Shown one piece after another: positions 547 to 45,574 of a DNA stretch of 64,000 nt; position 1 is the first letter of the stretch; each line of letters starts with the position of its first letter. Position numbers and translations under genes: made by a program. Source of the stretch: Vulcaniibacterium tengchongense (GTDB lineage: Bacteria; Pseudomonadota; Gammaproteobacteria; Xanthomonadales; Xanthomonadaceae); NCBI RefSeq assembly GCF_003814555.1, contig NZ_RKQN01000006.1, positions 1 through 64,000 of the forward strand, in the 5' to 3' direction. Below the pieces are notes generated by a model. That model had not been told where the DNA came from, made no database searches, and saw only the letters and a program-made list of their open reading frames with translations.

Positions 547-557
547 ACGGACATTCC

Positions 558-2210
558 ATGCCGCAGAACAACAATGAAGTCATCATCGACGCGCTGGATC
601 GGGACGAGAGCGGCAGGCCAGTCGCCAGGCCGCGCCTGACGCCGAATCAGGACCAGCGCGACAAGGTGTGCCTGATGCCGCCGGAAGCCGTGATCCCGGT
701 GGTGTTCCTGCCCGGCATCATGGGCAGCAATCTCAAAGCGAAAGACGGTGGCCGGGCCGTATGGCGCCCGCCGAACATGGATGGCGTCGGCGCCATCCTC
801 AGTGCGTTGGGGCAATTGTTCTCCTATTGGTTCAAGGGGCCAGCCACCAGGCAGCGCGAGTTGAACCCGCCAGGCGTCGAGGTGGATCCCCGCGGTTCGA
901 TCGAAACCGAGGGCACGCTCGAAAGGGAAGTGGCACGCGATCGCGGTTGGGGCACCGTCATGCGGTCTGCCTACAATCCGGTCATGTCGGTGATGGAAGA
1001 GCGCCTCAACAACCTGATGGTGTTGGGCGAAATGATGGAATGGTGGAACGACGAAGGCCGACGAGTCCCTTCGGACTACGGCGACCAGAAGAGCAATCCG
1101 CCGTTGACGGAAGACGATCTCAAGCACGCCGCGCAGTACCGTTACGAGGTATGGGGCGGCGGATACAACTGGTTGCAATCAAACGTCGACTCGGCCAACG
1201 ACATCAAGGACTATATAGAGAACAAGGTGCTGGCCAGCTACCCGGAAGACCAGCGCGGCAGGATGAAAGTCATCCTCGTCACGCACTCCATGGGGGGCTT
1301 CGTCGCTCGTGCACTGACCGAGATCGTCGGTTACGAGAAGGTCTTGGGTGTCGTTCACGGCGTCATGCCGGCCACGGGCGCACCGGCGATCTACCATCAC
1401 ATGCGGTGCGGCTACGAAGGCGTGGCCAGCGTGATCCTGGGGCGCGATGCCGCCGAGGTGGTGGCAGTCGCCGCATACTCGCCCGGGGCACTGCAGCTCA
1501 CGCCGGCATTCGATTACGCAGGCGGCAAGCCGTGGCTGAAGCTGGGCGATGGCGGTGCTTCAGAACCTGGTCGATCCTTGCCCACTTCGGGGAATCCGTA
1601 CGATGAGATCTATAAGAGCCGAGCTTGGTATGGGCTCATCCCGGAGCACAACGCGAAGCTCATCAATCCGGCCCAGCTGACAGGCCCTGCCCAAGAGAGC
1701 AAAGACATCTACGGTGGTATGAGTAGCTTGGAGGCTTTTGATTTGACCATCGATTCGGTCAGGTCATTTCATGCAGAGCTGGCTAAGAAGTATCCGAAGC
1801 CTGCCTATTGCCACTACGGCGCGGATTCCGGCCAGAAGACTTGGAGTGAGGTTCGGTGGCAAGGCACGCTCACGGCGCTCCCCGAGCAGTGGCAGGTGGA
1901 GGACGATGACGGCAATGGCCGCCTGCGTCTCACCAATGCCGGGCAGCATGTAGAACTTGAGTTTGGACCGCCCGAAGGCATGGGGGATGGCACAGTCTCT
2001 ACAGAGTCCGGTTCTGCACCAGGTGAGGCAGGGGTGCAGGCCAGCTTCCGACAAGGCAACCAAGCCGATGGCGCCTACGCCCGTATGAACGGAAAAGGCA
2101 AGGAACAAGGCTACGAACATCAGGACAGCTACAACGATCCGCGGGCGCAGTGGGCGACGCTGTACGGCATCGTGCGGATCGCCAGGCAAGCGGACTGGTC
2201 GTCATGCTGA
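558..2210 (+). CDS. T6SS lipase effector, Tle4-like alpha/beta hydrolase
   Basis: The product has 550 residues and no signal peptide. Near residue 50 it has the strand-turn VVFLPGIMGSNL typical of PGAP1/LCAT-like lipases. The nucleophile elbow is THSMGG with Ser244, a variant of GHSMG with Thr in place of the first Gly. The C-terminal EHQDSY segment holds a candidate catalytic His. It would act on membrane phospholipids of a rival cell after delivery on the VgrG spike encoded just upstream. I chose the ATG at 558 because the longer open frame overlaps vgrG out of phase. Its stop overlaps the start of a Tli4-type immunity gene, which places it in the Tle4 group. The exact lipase activity is inferred. 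Confidence 0.85.
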   Translation: MPQNNNEVIIDALDRDESGRPVARPRLTPNQDQRDKVCLMPPEAVIPVVFLPGIMGSNLKAKDGGRAVWRPPNMDGVGAILSALGQLFSYWFKGPATRQRELNPPGVEVDPRGSIETEGTLEREVARDRGWGTVMRSAYNPVMSVMEERLNNLMVLGEMMEWWNDEGRRVPSDYGDQKSNPPLTEDDLKHAAQYRYEVWGGGYNWLQSNVDSANDIKDYIENKVLASYPEDQRGRMKVILVTHSMGGFVARALTEIVGYEKVLGVVHGVMPATGAPAIYHHMRCGYEGVASVILGRDAAEVVAVAAYSPGALQLTPAFDYAGGKPWLKLGDGGASEPGRSLPTSGNPYDEIYKSRAWYGLIPEHNAKLINPAQLTGPAQESKDIYGGMSSLEAFDLTIDSVRSFHAELAKKYPKPAYCHYGADSGQKTWSEVRWQGTLTALPEQWQVEDDDGNGRLRLTNAGQHVELEFGPPEGMGDGTVSTESGSAPGEAGVQASFRQGNQADGAYARMNGKGKEQGYEHQDSYNDPRAQWATLYGIVRIARQADWSSC

Positions 2211-3220
2211 ACCGGCGTTTGATCGCACAGGGTTTGTTGGCCTTCGCCACCGTTCTGTGTGGAGGAACATCAAATGCAGATGGTGCAGAAGGAGTTCGCA
2301 TGAATAAAGAAGCCAAGACCCATTGTTTGGGTCGCTATCTCATCGATCTGCCCGCGAGTGCGAAAGTGACGACCCGCTACGTCTACTCGAGGGGCAAGAT
2401 CGCTACCCGAGTCGATGTATCGCCCGAAGGCTACGCCAAGCTTTTGTCGGAGCAGGAGGATGCGCTGAAGGCTGCCCGGCACGACGATGGGGGCAGCATG
2501 CTGGTGGATCGGGTGGAGTTCGCCCCGGGCAAGGTTTCGTTGATTTCCTGGAAAAGCCCGCATAGTCGGATTCTCTACCAGTACCGCTACTTTGCCTATT
2601 TGCCCGAAAGGCGCGTCCTCTTCTTGCTAGAGGGAGAAGGTAGCGCGAAAGCCGAGGCGCGGGCCCGGGCTGACAAAGCCGGCGGGGAACTCGTGACGGA
2701 GCTGCTCCGTTATCGAGAGGGAGATGAGGTTCCGAAGTCGCCCGGATATTGCTTCGATCACGGCTTGGTCGCGGACAATGCATTGAACCAAGAAGAATTC
2801 ACCGCCAACATCAAGCTGAAGGAGTATCCGAGCGTCACGCTCACCCTGATGTCCTACGTGACGGGCAAACCCGACCGCGAGCTGCTGCAGCGGGCATCGC
2901 GCATCCCGCCGGGGTTCGAACGCGCCGTCGCGCACATGAAGACGCTGCGCCGTGGCGACAGGAACATCGGGCCCGTGAAGGGGCAGGAACTCCTGGTGCG
3001 CGCGGACGCCGAGGGCAAGCGCAGCTACCACTTCCTGTGGGAGAGCCAAGGGCGGGCCAACTCGCTGGAATTCCCGTTCATGTCGTTGCAGCTGAGCACC
3101 ACCGACGAGACCGACGCCCGCGGCGAAGTGATCGATGCGCCGTTCGAATCGGACGAGGAAGCGCTCGAGCTTTGGGATTCGATCCTGACCACGTTGAGGC
3201 TGCGGCCGGGCGCGGTGTAG
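2204..3220 (+). CDS. Tli4-family immunity protein
   Basis: A 338-residue protein whose ATG lies inside the effector's stop region (ATGCTGA, 7-nt overlap), so the pair is probably translationally coupled. It starts with a hydrophobic export signal that ends near SNADG and then shows the Tli4 N-terminal signature THCLGRYLIDLP. Later comes the conserved SPGYCFDHG segment that opens the second domain. Tli4 proteins sit in the periplasm and block the cognate Tle4 lipase, protecting the producer and its siblings. No good lipobox precedes the early Cys, so a soluble periplasmic protein is more likely than a lipoprotein. An upstream in-frame ATG at 2150 would bury the signal and is less likely. Confidence 0.85.
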   Translation: MLNRRLIAQGLLAFATVLCGGTSNADGAEGVRMNKEAKTHCLGRYLIDLPASAKVTTRYVYSRGKIATRVDVSPEGYAKLLSEQEDALKAARHDDGGSMLVDRVEFAPGKVSLISWKSPHSRILYQYRYFAYLPERRVLFLLEGEGSAKAEARARADKAGGELVTELLRYREGDEVPKSPGYCFDHGLVADNALNQEEFTANIKLKEYPSVTLTLMSYVTGKPDRELLQRASRIPPGFERAVAHMKTLRRGDRNIGPVKGQELLVRADAEGKRSYHFLWESQGRANSLEFPFMSLQLSTTDETDARGEVIDAPFESDEEALELWDSILTTLRLRPGAV

Positions 3221-3442: not shown

Positions 3443-4027
3443 AAAGGGGGCGGCTGCAAGTTGCAGGAATGCCCGCTGAGAATGGGGCGTGATCGCTGGT
3501 GGGGCTTGGTACGGGAAGAGTGGCTGAGCCCGAAGGACGGCAGGCCGATCACTTGGGAACACCATGCCGACAATATCGAGTCGGCGCGGAGCTTCCATGG
3601 CCGCATTAATGGCCAATACCATCCGTGTACCCACGTCTATTACGGCGACGACGACAAAGAGCCCGGCTTCGAGACGGTCGTCTGGCGCATGAAGCCAGGC
3701 ATAAAGCCCGACAAGAATGTGCCCGCGTCCATGCAGGTGGGACGGGTTTCGGTGATGTCGCTTGGCCGAGTTTCGGCATGGAGCTGAGCACGACTTATCA
3801 GAGCAGTTGTTGGGAGCTGCACAGCGATCCGCAGGACGGAAGCGGCGACGGTACGGTGCCGGCAAGTCCGGGGCGTTCCCCCTCTAAAGAATGACGGCAA
3901 CAACATTCGGCAGCAGTTTCGGTTGTCGGGGTTCAAGCACGAGGCGTCGTACCGCAATCCGGGCGCGCAGCGCGCGACCTTGTACAGCATCATCAAGATT
4001 GCGGGCAAAGCGAAGGAGCCGGCGTGA
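3443..4027 (+). pseudogene. Frameshifted second copy of the Tle4-like effector C-terminus
   Basis: This stretch matches the last third of the effector at 558-2210 but in broken frames. Frame 2 gives DRWWGLV, then SARSFHGRINGQY and HVYYGDDD, matching SRAWYGLI, SVRSFHAELAKKY and CHYGADS. A TGA at 3785 ends that frame. The next frame gives GSGDGTVP, matching GMGDGTV. Frame 2 resumes and ends with FKHEASYRNPGAQRATLYSI, matching YEHQDSYNDPRAQWATLYGI. The nucleophile half is absent, so no lipase can be made. The 222 bases between the Tli4 gene and this remnant hold nothing I recognise. The stop overlaps the GTG of the next gene, as in the intact effector/immunity pair. Confidence 0.8.
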
Positions 4028-4700: not shown

Positions 4701-6641
4701 ATGTTTCGCCTGATGTGCGTTCTTGCTTTATTCGCTTGCCTGTGGGCGAACCCTTTTGGTGCTCGCGCCAAGAACTACCCAACGCAGGGCGAAGCCTATT
4801 CACGCTGTTGGGCCGCTTACTCGGCGGCCATGGGGCGCGCCGCGGCATACAACAGCAAACCGGGGATAACTTACGAGTGGCAATCCCGCAGCGCCTGTAA
4901 ATTGGGCGGGAATTCTACTTATCCCTTGTACGCGTGCACGCTTTACTACACCAATGCAGCGCTTGTTTCGTGCGAATTGGCGGTAGGCGGAACCGCTAGT
5001 GAAAATGGCGGCAGTTACGATTACAGCTTCCCAAGCACAAGGTCGACGTTCGATTACGCCAAGAGCCTGGGCAAGCCCGATTGCTGTGTTGGCAATCCAA
5101 TGAATGTGGCTACTGGCAACAAGTACCAAGAAGAGTTGGACTATGCCAACAACGAGCTCGAACTGCGGCGCTATTACAACAGCTTTCCGCCGCTGAGCCC
5201 CTCCGCGCTTGGCACACATTGGCGCCATACATTCGATCGTCGCTTGGAGCTCATGAACGACGGAACGAATTTCTTCGCTTACGCGCACCGCCAGGACGGA
5301 CACAGAATTGAGTTTCGCAAAGTTGCAGGCATATGGAAGCCAGACCCGGATGTGATTGATCGCCTCGTTTATGACGAGGGTTCGGGATACTGGGAGCTGC
5401 ATGAAGGCGAGACGCGGCAGCTTGAGCGCTACGACGCCAACGGACTGCTTGTCGCGATCGAGTTTCCGGATGGAGAAGCGATCGATCTGACTTACAGTGA
5501 CGACGAAACGCCTGCGCACATCGCTCCTGGCCCTGATTTGCTGTTGATCGCCTCGGATCGAAGCGGTCGAATCCTGACGTTCCACTACACCGCCACTGGC
5601 GCGCTACGGGATGTGGAGCAACCCGATGGAAAACTGGTCACCTACGAATACGACACGTTCGGCAACTTGGCTGAGGTGAGACACCCCGGTACCGCAATCC
5701 GACGGTATCACTACAACGAAAGCGGCTTAAACGGCGGCGTCGCCCAGCCAGGCCTGTTGACCGGCATCACAGATGAGAGCGGGATCAGGCTCTCAAGTTA
5801 TGGCTATAACAGCAAAGGTCAAGCCGTGCTGACGCAGCGTGGCAATGGCATTGAGAAGTATCAAGTGAAGCAGGCCGCTGATGGGCAAGTTGTAATTGCT
5901 TCTTCCTTGGGCGCGACGGATACCTACCAATTCTCAGTGATACACGGGGCTGCCCGCGTGAGCGCTCGGACGCAAACATGCGTTGGATGCCAAGCGCAAA
6001 GCTCCTTACGTACCTATGACGCTGCGGGCTATCCGGATGTGTTCACGGATTCAGGCGTTGTGGTCGACCACGACTACAGCTCTACGGGCTTGGAGACCCA
6101 GCGTGTCGAAAGCAAGGGAACAGCTAGCCAGCGAACGATCCAGACCGAGTGGAATGAATCTCTCCGGGTGCCCGTTGAGCGACGCACGTATCGGGCAGAT
6201 GGTGTTCTGATAGCCAAGTCTGCCTGGACCTACAACCCTCGCGGCCAACCGTTGACCAACACCCAGGTCGATCCGGTCGCTATGCAAACTCGGACAACTA
6301 CTACGACCTACTGCGAACAGGCGAACGTCGACGCAGGTACTTGCCCGCTGGTCGGATTGGTGACCTCCGTCGATAGCCCTCGTACCGACGTCAACGACGT
6401 CACGACGTACCAGTACTATGCGACCGACCATCCCGGTTGCGCTATCGCGCCCACTGCCTGTGCCTGGCGTAAGGGGGATCTGTGGAAGGTGGTGAATGCG
6501 CTGGGCCAAGTGACTGAGACGTTGCGCTATGACGGGTCCGGCCGCGTGCTCTCGGCGAAGGACGCCGATGGTGTCATCACCGATTTCGAATACCACCCGC
6601 GTGGCTGGCTGATTGCCAGGAAGACTCGCGGTTCGAATTGA
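4701..6641 (+). CDS. Rhs/YD-repeat protein, N-terminal half (split gene)
   Basis: A 646-residue protein with an apparent Sec signal (MFRLMCVLALFACLWAN...) and a Cys-containing N-terminal region. Near residues 128-210 lies the DUF6531-type entry to Rhs proteins (VGNPMNVATGNKYQEEL). After this come many YD-type repeats such as YEYDTFGNLAEV and FEYHPRGWLIA. Rhs proteins form a beta shell around a toxic C-terminal tip. Here the shell is incomplete: the frame stops at TGA 6639-6641 in the middle of a repeat and continues in the same frame in the next gene. There is no PAAR motif and no obvious VgrG-binding domain, so classical secretion followed by surface or periplasmic assembly is more likely than T6SS loading. 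Confidence 0.8.
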   Translation: MFRLMCVLALFACLWANPFGARAKNYPTQGEAYSRCWAAYSAAMGRAAAYNSKPGITYEWQSRSACKLGGNSTYPLYACTLYYTNAALVSCELAVGGTASENGGSYDYSFPSTRSTFDYAKSLGKPDCCVGNPMNVATGNKYQEELDYANNELELRRYYNSFPPLSPSALGTHWRHTFDRRLELMNDGTNFFAYAHRQDGHRIEFRKVAGIWKPDPDVIDRLVYDEGSGYWELHEGETRQLERYDANGLLVAIEFPDGEAIDLTYSDDETPAHIAPGPDLLLIASDRSGRILTFHYTATGALRDVEQPDGKLVTYEYDTFGNLAEVRHPGTAIRRYHYNESGLNGGVAQPGLLTGITDESGIRLSSYGYNSKGQAVLTQRGNGIEKYQVKQAADGQVVIASSLGATDTYQFSVIHGAARVSARTQTCVGCQAQSSLRTYDAAGYPDVFTDSGVVVDHDYSSTGLETQRVESKGTASQRTIQTEWNESLRVPVERRTYRADGVLIAKSAWTYNPRGQPLTNTQVDPVAMQTRTTTTTYCEQANVDAGTCPLVGLVTSVDSPRTDVNDVTTYQYYATDHPGCAIAPTACAWRKGDLWKVVNALGQVTETLRYDGSGRVLSAKDADGVITDFEYHPRGWLIARKTRGSN

Positions 6642-6659
6642 GCAGGGGAGCTCATTCCT

Positions 6660-9230
6660 ATGACCAAGGCACTTGGTAAAGCACGAACGATACCCAGATG
6701 GATGCGGCGGGAAGGTTCGAGCGCGGTCACCGCGCTGGCGATTGCGATCGCTGGTGTGGTTGTGCCGGCGACAGGGACGGCGCAGGCCAGCGAAGACCAG
6801 ATCACGCGTATCGACTACTACCCGACGGGTCTGGTCAGCAGCATTACCCTGCCGGACGGCAGCTTCACATCCTATGTTTACGATGCCGCCCACCGGCTCA
6901 CCGACATCGTCGATGCCGACGGCAATTCGATCCATTACACGCTGGACAATGCCGGCAACCGCACCCAGGAAGAGGTCAAGGGCAGCGATGGCAGCATCAA
7001 GCGCACCCGCTCCCGGGTGTACAACCAGTTGGGTCAGCTGCAGACGGCCAAGGATGCCGGCAACCACCCGACTGGCTTTACTTACGACCCCAACGGCAAT
7101 CTCGACACCACCACCGATGCGCTGGGCCGGGTGGCGGACAACGGCTACGACCCGCTGAACCGGCTGAGCAGGATGCTTCAGGACGTCGCCGGCATCGCCG
7201 CCGAGACCAAGTTCAAATACGACGCACAGGACAACCTGACCGAGGTCATCGATCCCAAGGGGCTGAGCACCAAATACCACTACAACGCCTTCGGTGACCT
7301 AACCCGCCTGGAAAGCCCGGACACGGGCGTCACGACCTACGGATACGACGCGGCCGGCAACCGCATCAGCGCGCTGGACGCCCGTCGCGAGCAGAGCGCC
7401 TACAGCTACGATGCGCTCAACCGGCTCACCGGCATCGCCTACAGCGACACCGCGCTGAACGTGAGCTACACCTACGACGCCGTGCAGGCGGTGTGCGACA
7501 CCCACGAATCGTTCGCCATCGGCCGGCTGACACGGATGGACGACGGCAGCGGCTCCACCCAGTACTGCCACGACCGCTTCGGCAACCTGACCCGCAAAGT
7601 GCAGGTGACCAACGGCCAATCGTTCACCCTGCGCTACGCCTACACGAAGGCCGGGCAGCTGGCCGCCATCCAGTACCCGGACGGGACCAGCGTGGACTAC
7701 GTGCGCGACGACCTGGGCCGCACTACCGAAGTCGGCGTGACCCCCAACGGTGGCACTCGCCAGGTGCTGCTGAGCAATGCCACCTACCACCCGTTTGGCC
7801 CCGTCGCCGGCTGGACCTTCGGCAACGGCCGCACCCTGAGCCGCACACTGGACCTGGACTACCGGCCCAAGACCATCCTGAGCACGGGAACCGGCGCTAA
7901 CGGACTGAACTTGGGCTTCGGTTGGGATGCCGTCGGCAACCTGGCGAGCCTGCACACCAGCGGCCTGGAACAGCCGCCGCGGATCACGTTCGGCTATGAC
8001 GCGTTGAATCGGCTGACGGTGTTCCAGGACGGCCCGACCGGCGCCGCCATTGAGCAGTACACCTACGACGCCACGGGCAACCGCACCAGCTTTACCAACG
8101 CCGGCGGTACACAGTTGTACGACTACCCAGGCGACAGCCATCGATTGGGTGCCGTGAACGGCGTGGCGCGCAGTTACGATGCGATGGGCAACACCACGTC
8201 GATCGGCGGTATCGAACGCGAGTTCGCCTACAACGCGGCCGGCCGGATGAGTCGGGTCGAGCGCAACAATGCTTTGGTAATGGAATACTCGTACAACGGC
8301 CAGGACGAACAGGTGTGCCGAAGCCTGGGCGAGGTGCGCACCCACGCGCTGTACGATCAGGCAGGACACTGGCTCGGTGACTACAGCAATGCGCAATCAC
8401 CGCTGCAGCAGGTGATTTGGCTGGATGACCTGCCGATCGGGGTGGTCGCGAACGGCAGCCTTCGCTATATCGAAGCGGACCACTTGGGCACGCCGCGGTC
8501 GGTCATCGACCCGCAGCGGGATGTGGCGGTTTGGACGTGGGATTTTGCGAGTGAGGCCTTCGGCAATAGTCTGCCGAATCAGGATCCGGATGCAGATGCG
8601 ATCCAGTTCGTGTTCGACATGCGATTTCCAGGCCAACATTACGATGCGGCGAGTGGGCTCAACTACAACCACTTCCGGGATTACGAGCCGGCGACCGGTA
8701 GGTATCCACAGAGCGATCCGATCGGGCTCAAGGGCGGTATTACCACCTACTCGTACGCAGGACTTTCTCCGCTGCGGCAAATTGATCCCAAGGGTCTACT
8801 TAGCTACGGCCCCTCCTGCAGTGCGGCGCAGCGAGCTCGAATCAATTCGGAAATTGTGCAGTTGGCAAACGAGCTGAAGGAAAAGGCCACTTCAAAGGAT
8901 TGCAATAACGGTTATTGTGATTGGGGGCTGGTGCGCGATGTTATGTCGTTCATAGCGTCCGAAGCCGTTTTCTCTTGCAATCTTGGCGGGCCTTGCGGCG
9001 CTATTTGGGGGTTGGATCGGAACGTATTCCTTTACGGCCCGTACGTTGATGCACCCTCGGCAGCTGAAATCAACAGTCCTGGCCAGTGTGGCTGCTTCCG
9101 CAGCACGCTATTCCATGAGGTGGCGCACAAGGTGCGATACGAAATGGGTGAGAACTCCATTCGCCGCGAGACTCTGAAATGCGTTCCGTGTGCGACCAAT
9201 CTCGCGGAAGGAGGCCATTCACCGCTATGA
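6660..9230 (+). CDS. Rhs core with cysteine-rich HEVAH metallopeptidase-like toxin tip
   Basis: An 856-residue protein. Residues 1-43 look like a signal peptide ending AQA, after which YD repeats begin at once. The Rhs core ends with SDPIGL (residues 685-690) and DPKGL (709-713), the usual boundary before a variable toxin. The tip of about 145 residues has nine Cys and an HEVAH zinc-peptidase motif (His819, Glu820, His823), with Glu residues downstream as possible third ligands. I cannot place the tip in a named family; it resembles the metallopeptidase tips known in polymorphic toxins. It is in the same frame as the preceding half-Rhs gene. It overlaps the likely immunity gene by ATGA. The core is certain; the toxic activity is inferred. 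Confidence 0.8.
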   Translation: MTKALGKARTIPRWMRREGSSAVTALAIAIAGVVVPATGTAQASEDQITRIDYYPTGLVSSITLPDGSFTSYVYDAAHRLTDIVDADGNSIHYTLDNAGNRTQEEVKGSDGSIKRTRSRVYNQLGQLQTAKDAGNHPTGFTYDPNGNLDTTTDALGRVADNGYDPLNRLSRMLQDVAGIAAETKFKYDAQDNLTEVIDPKGLSTKYHYNAFGDLTRLESPDTGVTTYGYDAAGNRISALDARREQSAYSYDALNRLTGIAYSDTALNVSYTYDAVQAVCDTHESFAIGRLTRMDDGSGSTQYCHDRFGNLTRKVQVTNGQSFTLRYAYTKAGQLAAIQYPDGTSVDYVRDDLGRTTEVGVTPNGGTRQVLLSNATYHPFGPVAGWTFGNGRTLSRTLDLDYRPKTILSTGTGANGLNLGFGWDAVGNLASLHTSGLEQPPRITFGYDALNRLTVFQDGPTGAAIEQYTYDATGNRTSFTNAGGTQLYDYPGDSHRLGAVNGVARSYDAMGNTTSIGGIEREFAYNAAGRMSRVERNNALVMEYSYNGQDEQVCRSLGEVRTHALYDQAGHWLGDYSNAQSPLQQVIWLDDLPIGVVANGSLRYIEADHLGTPRSVIDPQRDVAVWTWDFASEAFGNSLPNQDPDADAIQFVFDMRFPGQHYDAASGLNYNHFRDYEPATGRYPQSDPIGLKGGITTYSYAGLSPLRQIDPKGLLSYGPSCSAAQRARINSEIVQLANELKEKATSKDCNNGYCDWGLVRDVMSFIASEAVFSCNLGGPCGAIWGLDRNVFLYGPYVDAPSAAEINSPGQCGCFRSTLFHEVAHKVRYEMGENSIRRETLKCVPCATNLAEGGHSPL

Positions 9231-9658
9231 AATTGCGCAGCTTTACTTCTAGTTCCGTCGATTTCTTTAGGGGCGAGATCAAGCGATTCGTTCTGCCAAT
9301 CGCGTTGATATTGCTTGCTGCATCTTGCGGTATGACGGACCAAGGGAAAGAAGCATCTGCTGTAATCCCCCCTCCCCCTGACCTAAGAGAGTTGAGGGGT
9401 GTTCAAGGCTCCTGCGTGTCAACGCCACAATCTGCTGCCGTGACCGCGGCAGAGAAATGCTGGATTCGTGTCCTGTCGGAGAGATGCGCCTTGGGGGATG
9501 ACTGCCTGACAGCATGTATTGCCTCTGGCAAAGGAGCACTCATCGGCGGGGGCTGCTGGCATGTGTGCTCGCAACCCCCCAATCGCCTAACGGATTGGAA
9601 AGAGCCGCAGGCTGCACATGAGTGCAAAAATCTTGGAAGTGTTCACGGCTATCGGTAA
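9227..9658 (+). CDS. Cysteine-rich lipoprotein, probable immunity protein for the Rhs tip
   Basis: A 143-residue protein whose ATG overlaps the toxin stop (ATGA). It has a lipoprotein signal, LILLAASC, with the lipobox Cys near residue 35. The mature part has about eight more Cys, in patterns such as RCALGDDC and GGGCWHVC. That suggests disulfides and a periplasmic location. Its position directly after a variable Rhs tip, its membrane anchor and the matching cysteine richness fit a cognate inhibitor of the HEVAH domain. I recognise no family, and binding to the toxin is inferred only from arrangement. The start at 9227 is preferred over an upstream GTG because it gives a clean signal peptide and the overlap. 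Confidence 0.65.
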   Translation: MKLRSFTSSSVDFFRGEIKRFVLPIALILLAASCGMTDQGKEASAVIPPPPDLRELRGVQGSCVSTPQSAAVTAAEKCWIRVLSERCALGDDCLTACIASGKGALIGGGCWHVCSQPPNRLTDWKEPQAAHECKNLGSVHGYR

Positions 9659-9865: not shown

Positions 9866-9968
9866 TCACGTTACCTGCCGCAGTCGAGCATCGTACCCTC
9901 GCCCGATCCGGAACACGTTTGATGGCGCTGGGCCTTGGCTCTTCTCACAGGTAACTTGAACGGTGCCC

Positions 9969-10076
9969 CGTCCAGTTGCTGGCGCGGGTGTCCAGATCAG
10001 TTGGCGCCACTGTCCAACTTGCTTGGCAGTTCTGTCCAGTTCGTTTGGCGGCTGCGTCCAACCGTTTGGCTATATG
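9969..10076. repeat. Five imperfect 22-bp tandem repeats, GTCCA-N(5-8)-TGGC pattern
   Basis: Units start at 9969, 9989, 10011, 10033 and 10055 (spacing 20, 22, 22, 22). Each begins with T/C-GTCCA and has TTGGC (CTGGC in the first) about 6-9 bases on. The units are TGTCCAGATCAGTTGGCG, TGTCCAACTTGCTTGGCA, TGTCCAGTTCGTTTGGCG and close variants. The array runs into the start of the DUF3304 gene at 10074. It could be a binding array for a regulator. It could also be the multiple terminal repeats of an IS21-type element whose transposase genes are gone. No transposase gene was seen in the window. Confidence 0.75.
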
Positions 10077-10643
10077 TACCTGCTCGCAGCCGTAGCCCTG
10101 ACCGTTCTGACGGCCGCCTGCCAAGCCAGGCCCGCGGCCGACACGGAGATCCCGGCGAGCGCAAGCGCGCCGGAAGGTCCGTTCGACCTGGTCATCAATG
10201 GCTACAACTACACCGACCATTACATCGACAGCTTCTATGTCGATGGCAGCTGGGGCGGAAATCTTTTTGTCAGCACCCCAACCGCTGGAGGAGGTAAGAG
10301 CACCTGCTGCGTGCGCTGGTACTCGTGGATGCAGGTGCCGAAGACCTTCCGCGTTCGCTGGACGGCCGATGCGTGCCTGTATGAGCAAGAGGTGGAAGGA
10401 CAGGTGTTTACGCAGGTCAAGCACCTGTGGAAAGAGCAGGACGTGACGCTCGCTACGCCGCCGCCTGCCACGCCCGTTGCGTTTGAAGTGCACTTCTACC
10501 GGGACGGCCGCGTCGAGGTGGCCATTGCCGACGACATCGCCCGCCCGCCCCGCCTGAAACTGGAAGAGGAAGACGGCCGCCGCAAGGGAGCGCCGGAACG
10601 GGCGCGGTGCACTCCCGAGCAGATGCGTACCTATTCCGATTGA
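10074..10643 (+). CDS. DUF3304 lipoprotein, probable T6SS immunity-type protein
   Basis: A 189-residue protein starting MYLLAAVALTVLTAAC, a compact lipoprotein signal with lipobox TAAC. The mature part has the DUF3304 pattern: GYNYTDHYIDSFYVDGSWGG, a small-residue-rich turn, then STCCVRWYSW. DUF3304 genes commonly sit beside DUF2235 (Tle1) phospholipase effectors and are taken to be their immunity proteins. Here the neighbour is a decayed Tle1 gene, so this may be an orphan immunity gene still giving protection. I chose the ATG at 10074. A longer in-frame start at 9963 would translate the tandem repeats and place the signal inside the protein. Confidence 0.7.
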   Translation: MYLLAAVALTVLTAACQARPAADTEIPASASAPEGPFDLVINGYNYTDHYIDSFYVDGSWGGNLFVSTPTAGGGKSTCCVRWYSWMQVPKTFRVRWTADACLYEQEVEGQVFTQVKHLWKEQDVTLATPPPATPVAFEVHFYRDGRVEVAIADDIARPPRLKLEEEDGRRKGAPERARCTPEQMRTYSD

Positions 10644-43642: not shown

Positions 43643-45574
43643 TCAGCCGCGCTGCGCGACCCGCATCACCTTCGGCGTGACCATGATCAGCAGCTCGGCC
43701 TTGTCCTTGTTCCGGCCCTTCTTCTTGAACAGGTTGCCGAGGAACGGGATGTCGCCGAGGAACGGCACCTTGGAGATGTCGTTGCGGTCGCGGAACTCGT
43801 AGACGCCGCCGACCACGACGGTCTGCCCGTCCTCGACCAGCACCGCGGTATTGACCTCGCGCTTGGCGATGGTCGGCACCTGGCCGATCGAGGTGTCGAG
43901 ATAGCCCTCGACCTCGTCCTTCTTCACGTTCATGTTGAGGAACACGCGGCCGTCGTAGGTGATGGTCGGGGTGACCTTCAGCTCCAGCAGCACGTCCTTG
44001 AACTGCACGTTCGGAATCGGAATGGTGGTGCTGCCCTGGGTCGGCGAGATGGTCACGTAGCCGACCTCCTGGCCCTGGCGGATCACCGCCTCGCGCTGGT
44101 TGCTGGTGACCACGCGCGGGTTGGAGATCACTTCGCCGCGGCCTTCCTGCTGCATCGCCGACAGCTCGATATCGAGCGCGTAACCGGCGTTGAGGATCTG
44201 CAAGGCCAGAGAGCCCGCCGGGTTCTGCACCGCCAGATTGCTCATCGCGCCCTTGCTCAGCTCGAAGGTCGGACTGCCGGAATTGACCGCTTCGACGAAA
44301 GAGCCCCGCGTCTCGTCGTTGTTCTCGATCGTGTCGTTGAAGAAATACTTGCCGTCCTTGTGGCCGGCGATGCCGAAGCGGGCGCCCAGCTCGCGCGCGA
44401 ACGACTCGGTGGCGATCACCACCCGCGCCTCGATCAACACCTGATCCACGGGCTTGTCGATCACCCGGATCAGCTCCTTCATCTGCGCGACCTTCTTGGG
44501 AATGTCGCTGATCATCAGGGTGTTGGTGCGCTCGTCCGCGACCAGCCGGCCGCGCGGCGACAGGAACCCGCCGTCGTTGTTCGACGTGCCCTGCCCGCCC
44601 TGGTTGCCGCCCCCGCCGATGCCCTTGGCCTCGGTCAGCGCCTTGTAGATCTGCGCGGCGTTGTGGTAGTTGATCTGCACGTACTCGGTGACGGTGTCGA
44701 CGCGGTTGTCCAGGGCGATGCGCGCGTCCTCCTTGTCCTGCTCGTACTTGGCGATCTCGGCCTGCGGCGCCACCCAGATCACGTTGCCGCTGCGGCGCTT
44801 GTCCAGGCCCTTGGCCTGCAGCACCAGGTCCAGCGCCTGGTCCCAGGGCACGTTGATCAGACGCAGGGTGACGTTGCCCTGCACCGTGTCCGCGGCGACC
44901 ACGTTGAGGCCGGACTCCTCGGCGATCAGCTGCAGCACCGTGCGCACCGGCACGTCCTGGAAGTTGAAGGTCACCGGGCGGCCGCTGTAGCGGACGCCGG
45001 CCGCCGCCGTCGCGCCCTTGGCGCCGCCCTGCGGCGCGCCGACCGCCCGGCCGCTCGGCGCGCCGGTGCGCGGCACGATCTCGACGATGTACTCGCGGCC
45101 GGTCTGGTAGGCCAGCGACTCGAACTCGCCGCGGGTATCGAGCACCAGCTGGGTGCCGGCGCCGCTGGCGCGGGCGTCGATGCGCTGCACCGGCGTGGCG
45201 AAGTCGACCACGTCCAACGGCCGGCGCAGCGCCTCGGGCAGGCGCGCGTTGCCCACGTCGACGATCACGCTGGAGCCCTGGTTGCGCAGGTCCGGCGCGG
45301 CGCCGTCGCCGCTGAACTTGACGATCAGCCGGCCGGAGCCGTCGCTGCCGCGCTTGAAGTCGATGTTGTCGACCGAGACCGCGCCCGGCAGCTGCTTGGC
45401 CGGGTCCTGGCCGGGCGCGGCGGCGACCGCGCTCGGCGCGGCGGCGGGAGCGCTCGGCGCGGCGGCGTGCACGGCGCCGAACGCCGCGATCGCGCCGACC
45501 ACCAGGCCCACCGACCCGCTGCGCAACAGGGGGCGCCGGGCGGGCCGCTTGGGTGTAGCAGTGAATACGGTCAT
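43643..45574 (-). CDS. pilQ: Type IV pilus secretin PilQ
   Basis: A 643-residue outer-membrane secretin through which the pilus passes. It has a signal peptide, one N-terminal AMIN-like domain (VDNIDFKRGSDGSGRLIVKF), an STN-type domain (VTFNFQDVPVRTVLQLIAEE), an N1 domain (YVQINYHNAAQIYKALTEA) and the secretin barrel (EVISNPRVVTSNQREAVIRQ, VPFLGDIPFLGNLFKKK). I chose the ATG at 45574 because GGGGGATAG lies well placed before it. An ATG at 45595, which overlaps the pilP stop as ATGA, is in frame and would add seven residues. It is the last gene of pilMNOPQ. Confidence 0.94.
   Translation of the reverse strand: MTVFTATPKRPARRPLLRSGSVGLVVGAIAAFGAVHAAAPSAPAAAPSAVAAAPGQDPAKQLPGAVSVDNIDFKRGSDGSGRLIVKFSGDGAAPDLRNQGSSVIVDVGNARLPEALRRPLDVVDFATPVQRIDARASGAGTQLVLDTRGEFESLAYQTGREYIVEIVPRTGAPSGRAVGAPQGGAKGATAAAGVRYSGRPVTFNFQDVPVRTVLQLIAEESGLNVVAADTVQGNVTLRLINVPWDQALDLVLQAKGLDKRRSGNVIWVAPQAEIAKYEQDKEDARIALDNRVDTVTEYVQINYHNAAQIYKALTEAKGIGGGGNQGGQGTSNNDGGFLSPRGRLVADERTNTLMISDIPKKVAQMKELIRVIDKPVDQVLIEARVVIATESFARELGARFGIAGHKDGKYFFNDTIENNDETRGSFVEAVNSGSPTFELSKGAMSNLAVQNPAGSLALQILNAGYALDIELSAMQQEGRGEVISNPRVVTSNQREAVIRQGQEVGYVTISPTQGSTTIPIPNVQFKDVLLELKVTPTITYDGRVFLNMNVKKDEVEGYLDTSIGQVPTIAKREVNTAVLVEDGQTVVVGGVYEFRDRNDISKVPFLGDIPFLGNLFKKKGRNKDKAELLIMVTPKVMRVAQRG

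Follow-up and report, generated by a model that had tools for sequence, protein, structure and literature searches.

A Rhs toxin locus of Vulcaniibacterium tengchongense whose shell is divided between two genes, each with a signal-peptide-like leader

The shells of Rhs toxins are usually viewed as one chain that closes round the toxin during synthesis, and TcB/TcC is the known two-chain Rhs shell. RHS toxins with a signal peptide form a known class, according to the available part of PMC3482391. Here we describe a locus in a 64,000-nucleotide stretch of Vulcaniibacterium tengchongense (contig NZ_RKQN01000006.1, positions 1 to 64,000; the whole stretch is called the window), in which a Rhs shell is divided between two consecutive genes, A and B (Table 1). 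Judging from its sequence, the locus is a Rhs/YD-repeat polymorphic toxin, in a variant with the shell in two open reading frames (ORFs) instead of one. The hallmarks are present, namely RHS/YD repeats (PF05593; 65.2 bits in A and 159.8 bits in B in Pfam), an RHS-associated core with a DPxG pair, and a variable C-terminal domain. The single-chain shell, which is usual for Rhs toxins though not strictly defining, is replaced by two ORFs with a TGA between them. Among the top-ranked matches in titles and abstracts of the open-licence PMC literature, which holds no preprints and few subscription journals, no report of split, separately exported Rhs shells was found.

The reading that we prefer, at a probability of about 0.68, is a two-chain Rhs toxin whose halves are exported by Sec and assemble into a shell in the periplasm, with probable exit by type II secretion and a split kept under selection. 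A would be the N-terminal half of the Rhs β-shell, and B would be the C-terminal half together with the self-protease of the RHS core and the polymorphic toxin domain. Each chain would reach the periplasm by its own Sec-type signal peptide, a pathway suggested by the leaders. There, as the fold and its conservation suggest, the open edge of A and the N-terminal edge of B would join at an inter-repeat linker, and the shell would be rebuilt around the cleaved toxin. The complex would cross the outer membrane probably by type II secretion, by analogy with a Xanthomonas RHS bacteriocin. The split would have derived from a fused gene and then been retained by selection.

At the junction, A ends in ..WLIARKTRGSN within the RHS repeats, and the ATG of B at 6660 shares the frame of A ((6660 − 4701) mod 3 = 0). 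Residues 1–43 of B finish in ..GTAQA and run directly into SEDQITRIDYYPTG, where the repeat resumes. Fused relatives have a variable linker of approximately four residues at this position, for example RKVRGADNGTE followed by SDDQIMRIDYYPTG, and in the window a stop, a spacer, and a leader stand in its place. The in-frame Rhs split reported in a preliminary description of this DNA is borne out by the 646- and 856-residue ORFs, the TGA at 6639–6641, and the same-frame ATG. The 147 bases at 6642–6788, which that description took for an insertion, have the extent claimed, but they replace the linker of fused relatives and are not a pure insertion.

The leader on the B half, also proposed there, passes a simple rule made of hydropathy and cleavage criteria for the n-, h-, and c-regions. 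The rule is likewise passed by 20 of the 22 downstream starts of split pieces and by all eight A starts. As a control, 22 of the 2,804 internal in-frame start codons of 56 fused Rhs ORFs pass, with at least one pass in 14 of the 56; the contrast is a rough one, since starts could slide in the split group and were fixed in the control. The leaders suggest Sec export. The hydrophobic core of the B leader (LAIAIAGVVV) has the usual length, which would also suit an uncleaved membrane anchor tethering or inserting the toxin half. Such an anchor is very improbable, given that small-residue cleavage-like motifs come next in the window and in Lysobacter sp. MMG2, and that the short leaders of other lineages finish in AQ right before the repeats.

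The AlphaFold2 model of A has a mean predicted local distance difference test score (pLDDT) of 84.0, with residues 91–623 forming a confident β-shell. The model of B has a mean pLDDT of 78.8, and its β-shell is confident to approximately 630–640 mature residues, whereas its toxin part is mostly below 50. With VIA-align, A is placed on residues 360–811 (Z 28.0) and B on residues 791–1420 (Z 30.1) of the single-chain shell of Salmonella bongori (8qjd). In a teneurin-like protein (9ifo), the corresponding areas are residues 706–1636 (Z 23.1) and 1544–2144 (Z 24.2). Against stand-alone TcC chains, the B shell gives a fit of Z 25.0 both with 4igl_D and with 6l7i_G. On 8qja and other shells the placements of A and B overlap by up to approximately 100 residues, indicating that the repeat register is loose, and Foldseek alone gives poor global TM-scores in many rows. 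In these predicted structures, A and B match complementary N- and C-terminal parts of one shell of the single-chain type.

In the genome of the window, A has a single match and the other matches of B are weak (28–43% identical), so that the pair has no second close copy there; a scan of the genome contigs with A gave nothing confirmed. We searched 297 genomes of the family, scoring the best few candidates per genome, and the counts cover the matches listed. A is matched in 117 genomes at E ≤ 1e-20 and B in 129 at E ≤ 1e-60. The frames of the relatives among these matches are mostly approximately 1,400–1,800 residues long, many shorter ones stopping at contig ends, and in 188 of the 214 matches to the head of B the frame stays open for 420 residues or more upstream (overlapping loci counted separately). 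Most relatives have a single gene of approximately 1,450–1,700 residues with a short linker at this position, so that fusion is the usual state. Lysobacter sp. MMG2 (genome G222) has the stop, spacer, and leader as in the window. In genome G234, the end of A, the stop, and the first leader codons are retained and a deletion follows, leaving a decayed copy. The junction DNA is alignable among these three, and the fused locus L082 is without such DNA. Five of the 12 genomes of genus g46 match: one has the intact split, one is decayed, two are fused, and G128 has a different A-like and B pair. Four loci were considered as split cases and rejected: L156 is broken by a frameshift, L158 by a nonsense TAA with no leader, and L037 and L043 show no leader ahead of the B start, near which L043 has an ambiguous base.

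Intact one-gene relatives, which the preliminary description regarded as a sign of sequencing error, do form the majority, but the stop is common to independent assemblies (MMG2 and G234), which speaks against such an error. The spacer preserves the frame in the window and MMG2, as would suit an error or a readthrough of the stop giving one long chain. This explanation is hardly credible. Stop and leader are common to independent genomes, a signal peptide would remain inside the shell after readthrough, and in several Oxalobacteraceae loci, such as L178, the genes overlap and the frame changes from one to the next.

Between the window and MMG2, the B shell is 74.5% identical with a ratio of nonsynonymous to synonymous substitution rates (dN/dS) of 0.18 (NG86, 670 codons). 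A is 40.8% identical with a dN/dS of 0.22 (NG86, 590 codons), a rough value because synonymous sites are near saturation, and the B leader is 35.6% identical. In the B tree, the window and MMG2 are sisters (Shimodaira–Hasegawa-like approximate likelihood ratio test, 95), followed by the fused L082, the fused G246, and then the decayed G234. In the tree of A tails, A1 and A2 of MMG2 group with the A of G234 (99/99). On this comparative sequence evidence, the split is not due to a sequencing error, nor is it a scar of recent origin.

Splits recur outside the family. Duganella sp. Root336D2 (L145) and Massilia sp. Root418 (L178) have successive genes for A, a middle piece (M), and a core-plus-toxin piece (C). 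The downstream pieces have leaders by the rule or by eye, the third piece of this type has immunoglobulin-like repeats by eye, and the first gene of L145 is cut off by the contig start. In the third Massilia piece (L178, 4079–5590, minus strand), two such repeats (by eye) lie between the leader and the RHS core. Downstream of a three-gene split Rhs, an ORF opening MSGDPISRIDPLGL (L180, 896–1366, minus strand) appears to be a C-terminal toxin cassette of a Rhs protein that has been displaced. In an Oxalobacteraceae sample, the middle piece is matched in 10 of 145 genomes at E ≤ 1e-60, and an A followed by a leader-bearing piece is found in six of the ten (G297, G314, G333, G365, G398, and G436, where the A of locus L205 is without a clear leader). 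The remaining four run into contig ends, lack an A that could be identified, or have fused frames, and G298, outside the list of ten, is a seventh split case. Both three-gene (A/M/C) and two-gene (A/B) layouts occur. In a phylum sample, B is matched in 22 of 398 genomes at E ≤ 1e-40, and the splits with leaders besides the window, in G499 (genus g70) and G787, represent two further gammaproteobacterial lineages. Seven of the 25 genomes of genus g70 match; the B match runs from residue 1, leader included, in four (G499, G585, G840, and G855), of which G585 has its match on a 3-kb contig that shows the B side only, and starts only from residue 25 in the fused G839.

The break positions differ. 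In mature B numbering, the break is at 1 in the window, at approximately 90 with a second near 554 in Oxalobacteraceae, and near 95–100 in G787; in G499 it lies upstream, near residue 545 of window A (the last two by eye from translations). The TcC chains start at approximately 104 (TcC residues 4–6 align to 108–109). These differences suggest that the shell is cut at several inter-repeat positions. The recurrence in several unrelated bacteria suggests that the split is a working design; by its sequence it looks more like a shell whose pieces are exported than like a gene that has been broken. The contrary explanation is a recombination scar, in which the leader and start arrived by a chance Rhs recombination and the locus is decaying. 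Rhs loci recombine frequently, the G234 copy has decayed, and leaderless frameshift and nonsense breaks lie near the junction in L156 and L158. However, both halves are intact with low dN/dS in two genomes, three further lineages have the same design with the break elsewhere in the shell, and the leader rule is passed by nearly all downstream starts, as given above, so that a scar is quite unlikely. The preliminary description had named both explanations. The stop and leader shared with MMG2, the decayed homologue in G234, the low dN/dS of both halves, and the recurrence favor separately exported halves forming one shell.

Several loci have two different N-terminal halves per C-terminal half. 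In genus g70, G499, G840, and G855 have the order A-A-B; G314 has A-A-M, and MMG2 has A-B-A, its A2 being an orphan with no B after it. Because A1 of G840 is truncated at its end and A1 of G499 is followed by a decayed B start, some of the extra A genes may be leftovers. The orphan A2 and the A-A-B and A-A-M loci would suit exported halves that act apart, with B as a self-sufficient toxin carrier and A as an independent adhesin, decoy, or spare. We consider this unlikely, since A terminates within the shell, each half covers only part of the closed shell, and tandem copies of A resemble each other most over their last 100 residues, the edge that faces B. Identity in tandem pairs is 0.62–0.85 over the last 100 aligned residues and goes down to 0.22–0.47 in distal bins. 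Cross-genome A pairs show a similar gradient, so that the tandem gradient is no proof of shared pairing and could also arise without it. A tentative and rather doubtful extension of the two-chain reading is a combinatorial weapon, in which one exported toxin half B would be common to several alternative N-terminal halves. Each A might then have its own leader and outer part with a near-constant mating edge, assembly taking place in the periplasm, an idea that we hold with equal reserve. If it is true, one toxin carrier would be presented with different front halves, and the tandem N-terminal halves would be a modular means of varying the front of a fixed toxin carrier.

As to export, the genome encodes GspD above the cut-off (545 bits, contig C2). 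The window itself has another match to a GspD-like secretin (43652–44968, minus strand; 212 and 28 bits), which is below the curated cut-off. The 1,398-residue RHS bacteriocin of Xanthomonas perforans (Bcn-A) is active in the supernatant and its activity is lost in an xpsD mutant, according to the available part of PMC7259588. The genome also has type VI secretion system genes, including TssC. The locus was considered as a type VI Rhs effector and this was rejected, A having no PAAR- or VgrG-type match in Pfam and a leader there instead.

Several points weigh against the two-chain reading. The intact stop and leader are rare, being found in two of the 297 family genomes (window and MMG2) among the matches listed. 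The fused L082 and G246 lie inside the B-tree group of the window, MMG2, and G234 copies, so that one has to reckon with re-fusion, transfer, or repeated recombination. The window A is unplaced in the A-tail tree and does not go with the A of MMG2. In L178 and L179, the leader of M fails the simple rule, though it is leader-like by eye. The alignment for the A model included fused relatives, and the stability of the free A half is thus a prediction. Finally, Bcn-A is said to have no signal sequence in the part of PMC7259588 at hand, which weakens the precedent; type II exit is therefore a step that we infer.

Table 1. Positions of the features of the split Rhs locus in the window
Feature	Position	Strand	Basis or remark
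Gene A, N-terminal half of Rhs shell, 646 residues	4701..6641	+	ORF list; Pfam RHS_repeat and DUF6531; AlphaFold2
Leader of A, signal-peptide-like, MFRLMCVLALFACLWANPFGARA	4701..4769	+	passes simple hydropathy/cleavage rule
DUF6531 domain, A residues 131–205	5091..5315	+	Pfam PF20148, 49.3 bits
TGA closing A at inter-repeat linker	6639..6641	+	also in Lysobacter sp. MMG2 and G234
AGGGGAG, Shine-Dalgarno-like, ahead of B	6644..6650	+	sequence; GGGAGC also in MMG2
Gene B, C-terminal half of Rhs shell and toxin domain, 856 residues	6660..9230	+	
Leader of B, signal-peptide-like, 43 residues, ..ALAIAIAGVVVPATGTAQA	6660..6788	+	simple rule; homologous leader in MMG2
RHS-associated core, B residues 633–713	8556..8798	+	TIGR03696, 64.9 bits
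Polymorphic C-terminal domain with HEVAH (9114–9128)	8799..9227	+	sequence
Candidate immunity gene, lipoprotein-like, lipobox-like LLAASC	9227..9658	+	overlaps end of B; start probably 9227

DPIG at 8715 (B residue 686) and DPKG at 8784 (B residue 709) lie inside the RHS-associated core and are presumed to form the self-cleavage site. HEVAH in the toxin domain, the last approximately 140 residues of B, is a metallopeptidase-like motif. Past the core, the C-terminus of window B is unlike that of MMG2 B by inspection, and Pfam gives no match at E ≤ 1 for four C-terminal domains including that of window B. The ORF overlapping the end of B is, by its position, a candidate for the cognate immunity gene; it has no significant family in Pfam and one weak match (0.14). 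Further downstream, 9963–10643 encodes a DUF3304 protein that weakly matches the Tli1a family and is possibly a second immunity gene. Ahead of gene A, an ORF for a PGAP1-like α/β-hydrolase is followed by a Tli4-family immunity protein (552–3220), a type VI lipase-immunity pair by annotation, and 3461–3787 resembles a fragment of a second copy.

If export in two or three pieces and periplasmic closure are true, they bear on the passage of large shells through Sec, on toxin enclosure, and on shell evolution by fission, and the recurrence of the split makes the design testable.

Among described systems, the single-chain Rhs of Lysobacter changpingensis (L082, Lysobacteraceae) resembles the locus in its repeats, core, position of the C-terminal toxin, and junction sequence on both sides, with a B shell 80% identical. 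It differs in being one gene with the four-residue linker where the window has the stop and leader. The Tc toxin BC component (TcB/TcC; PDB 4igl, 6l7i, and 4o9x) is a two-chain Rhs shell with the toxin on the second chain, and the gene layout and predicted fold of the window locus agree with it. However, the boundary in the window is offset from the TcC start by approximately 104 residues, TcC beginning further into B. Window A has DUF6531 and no SpvB/TcdB match, RHS_repeat and DUF6531 being its whole Pfam content at E ≤ 0.001. Window B bears its own leader, which TcC is not known to have. Bacterial teneurin-like proteins (PMC13018210, available part; PDB 9ifo) are exported Rhs-type shells enclosing a C-terminal toxin; A and B match two parts of such a protein, which differs in consisting of one chain and in having N-terminal domains of its own. 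Bcn-A, likened by description only from the available part of PMC7259588, is an RHS-family antibacterial protein from the same family of bacteria, and an immunity gene lies downstream of it. It differs from the two-gene locus in its single ORF, in the described absence of a signal sequence, and in needing further ORFs.
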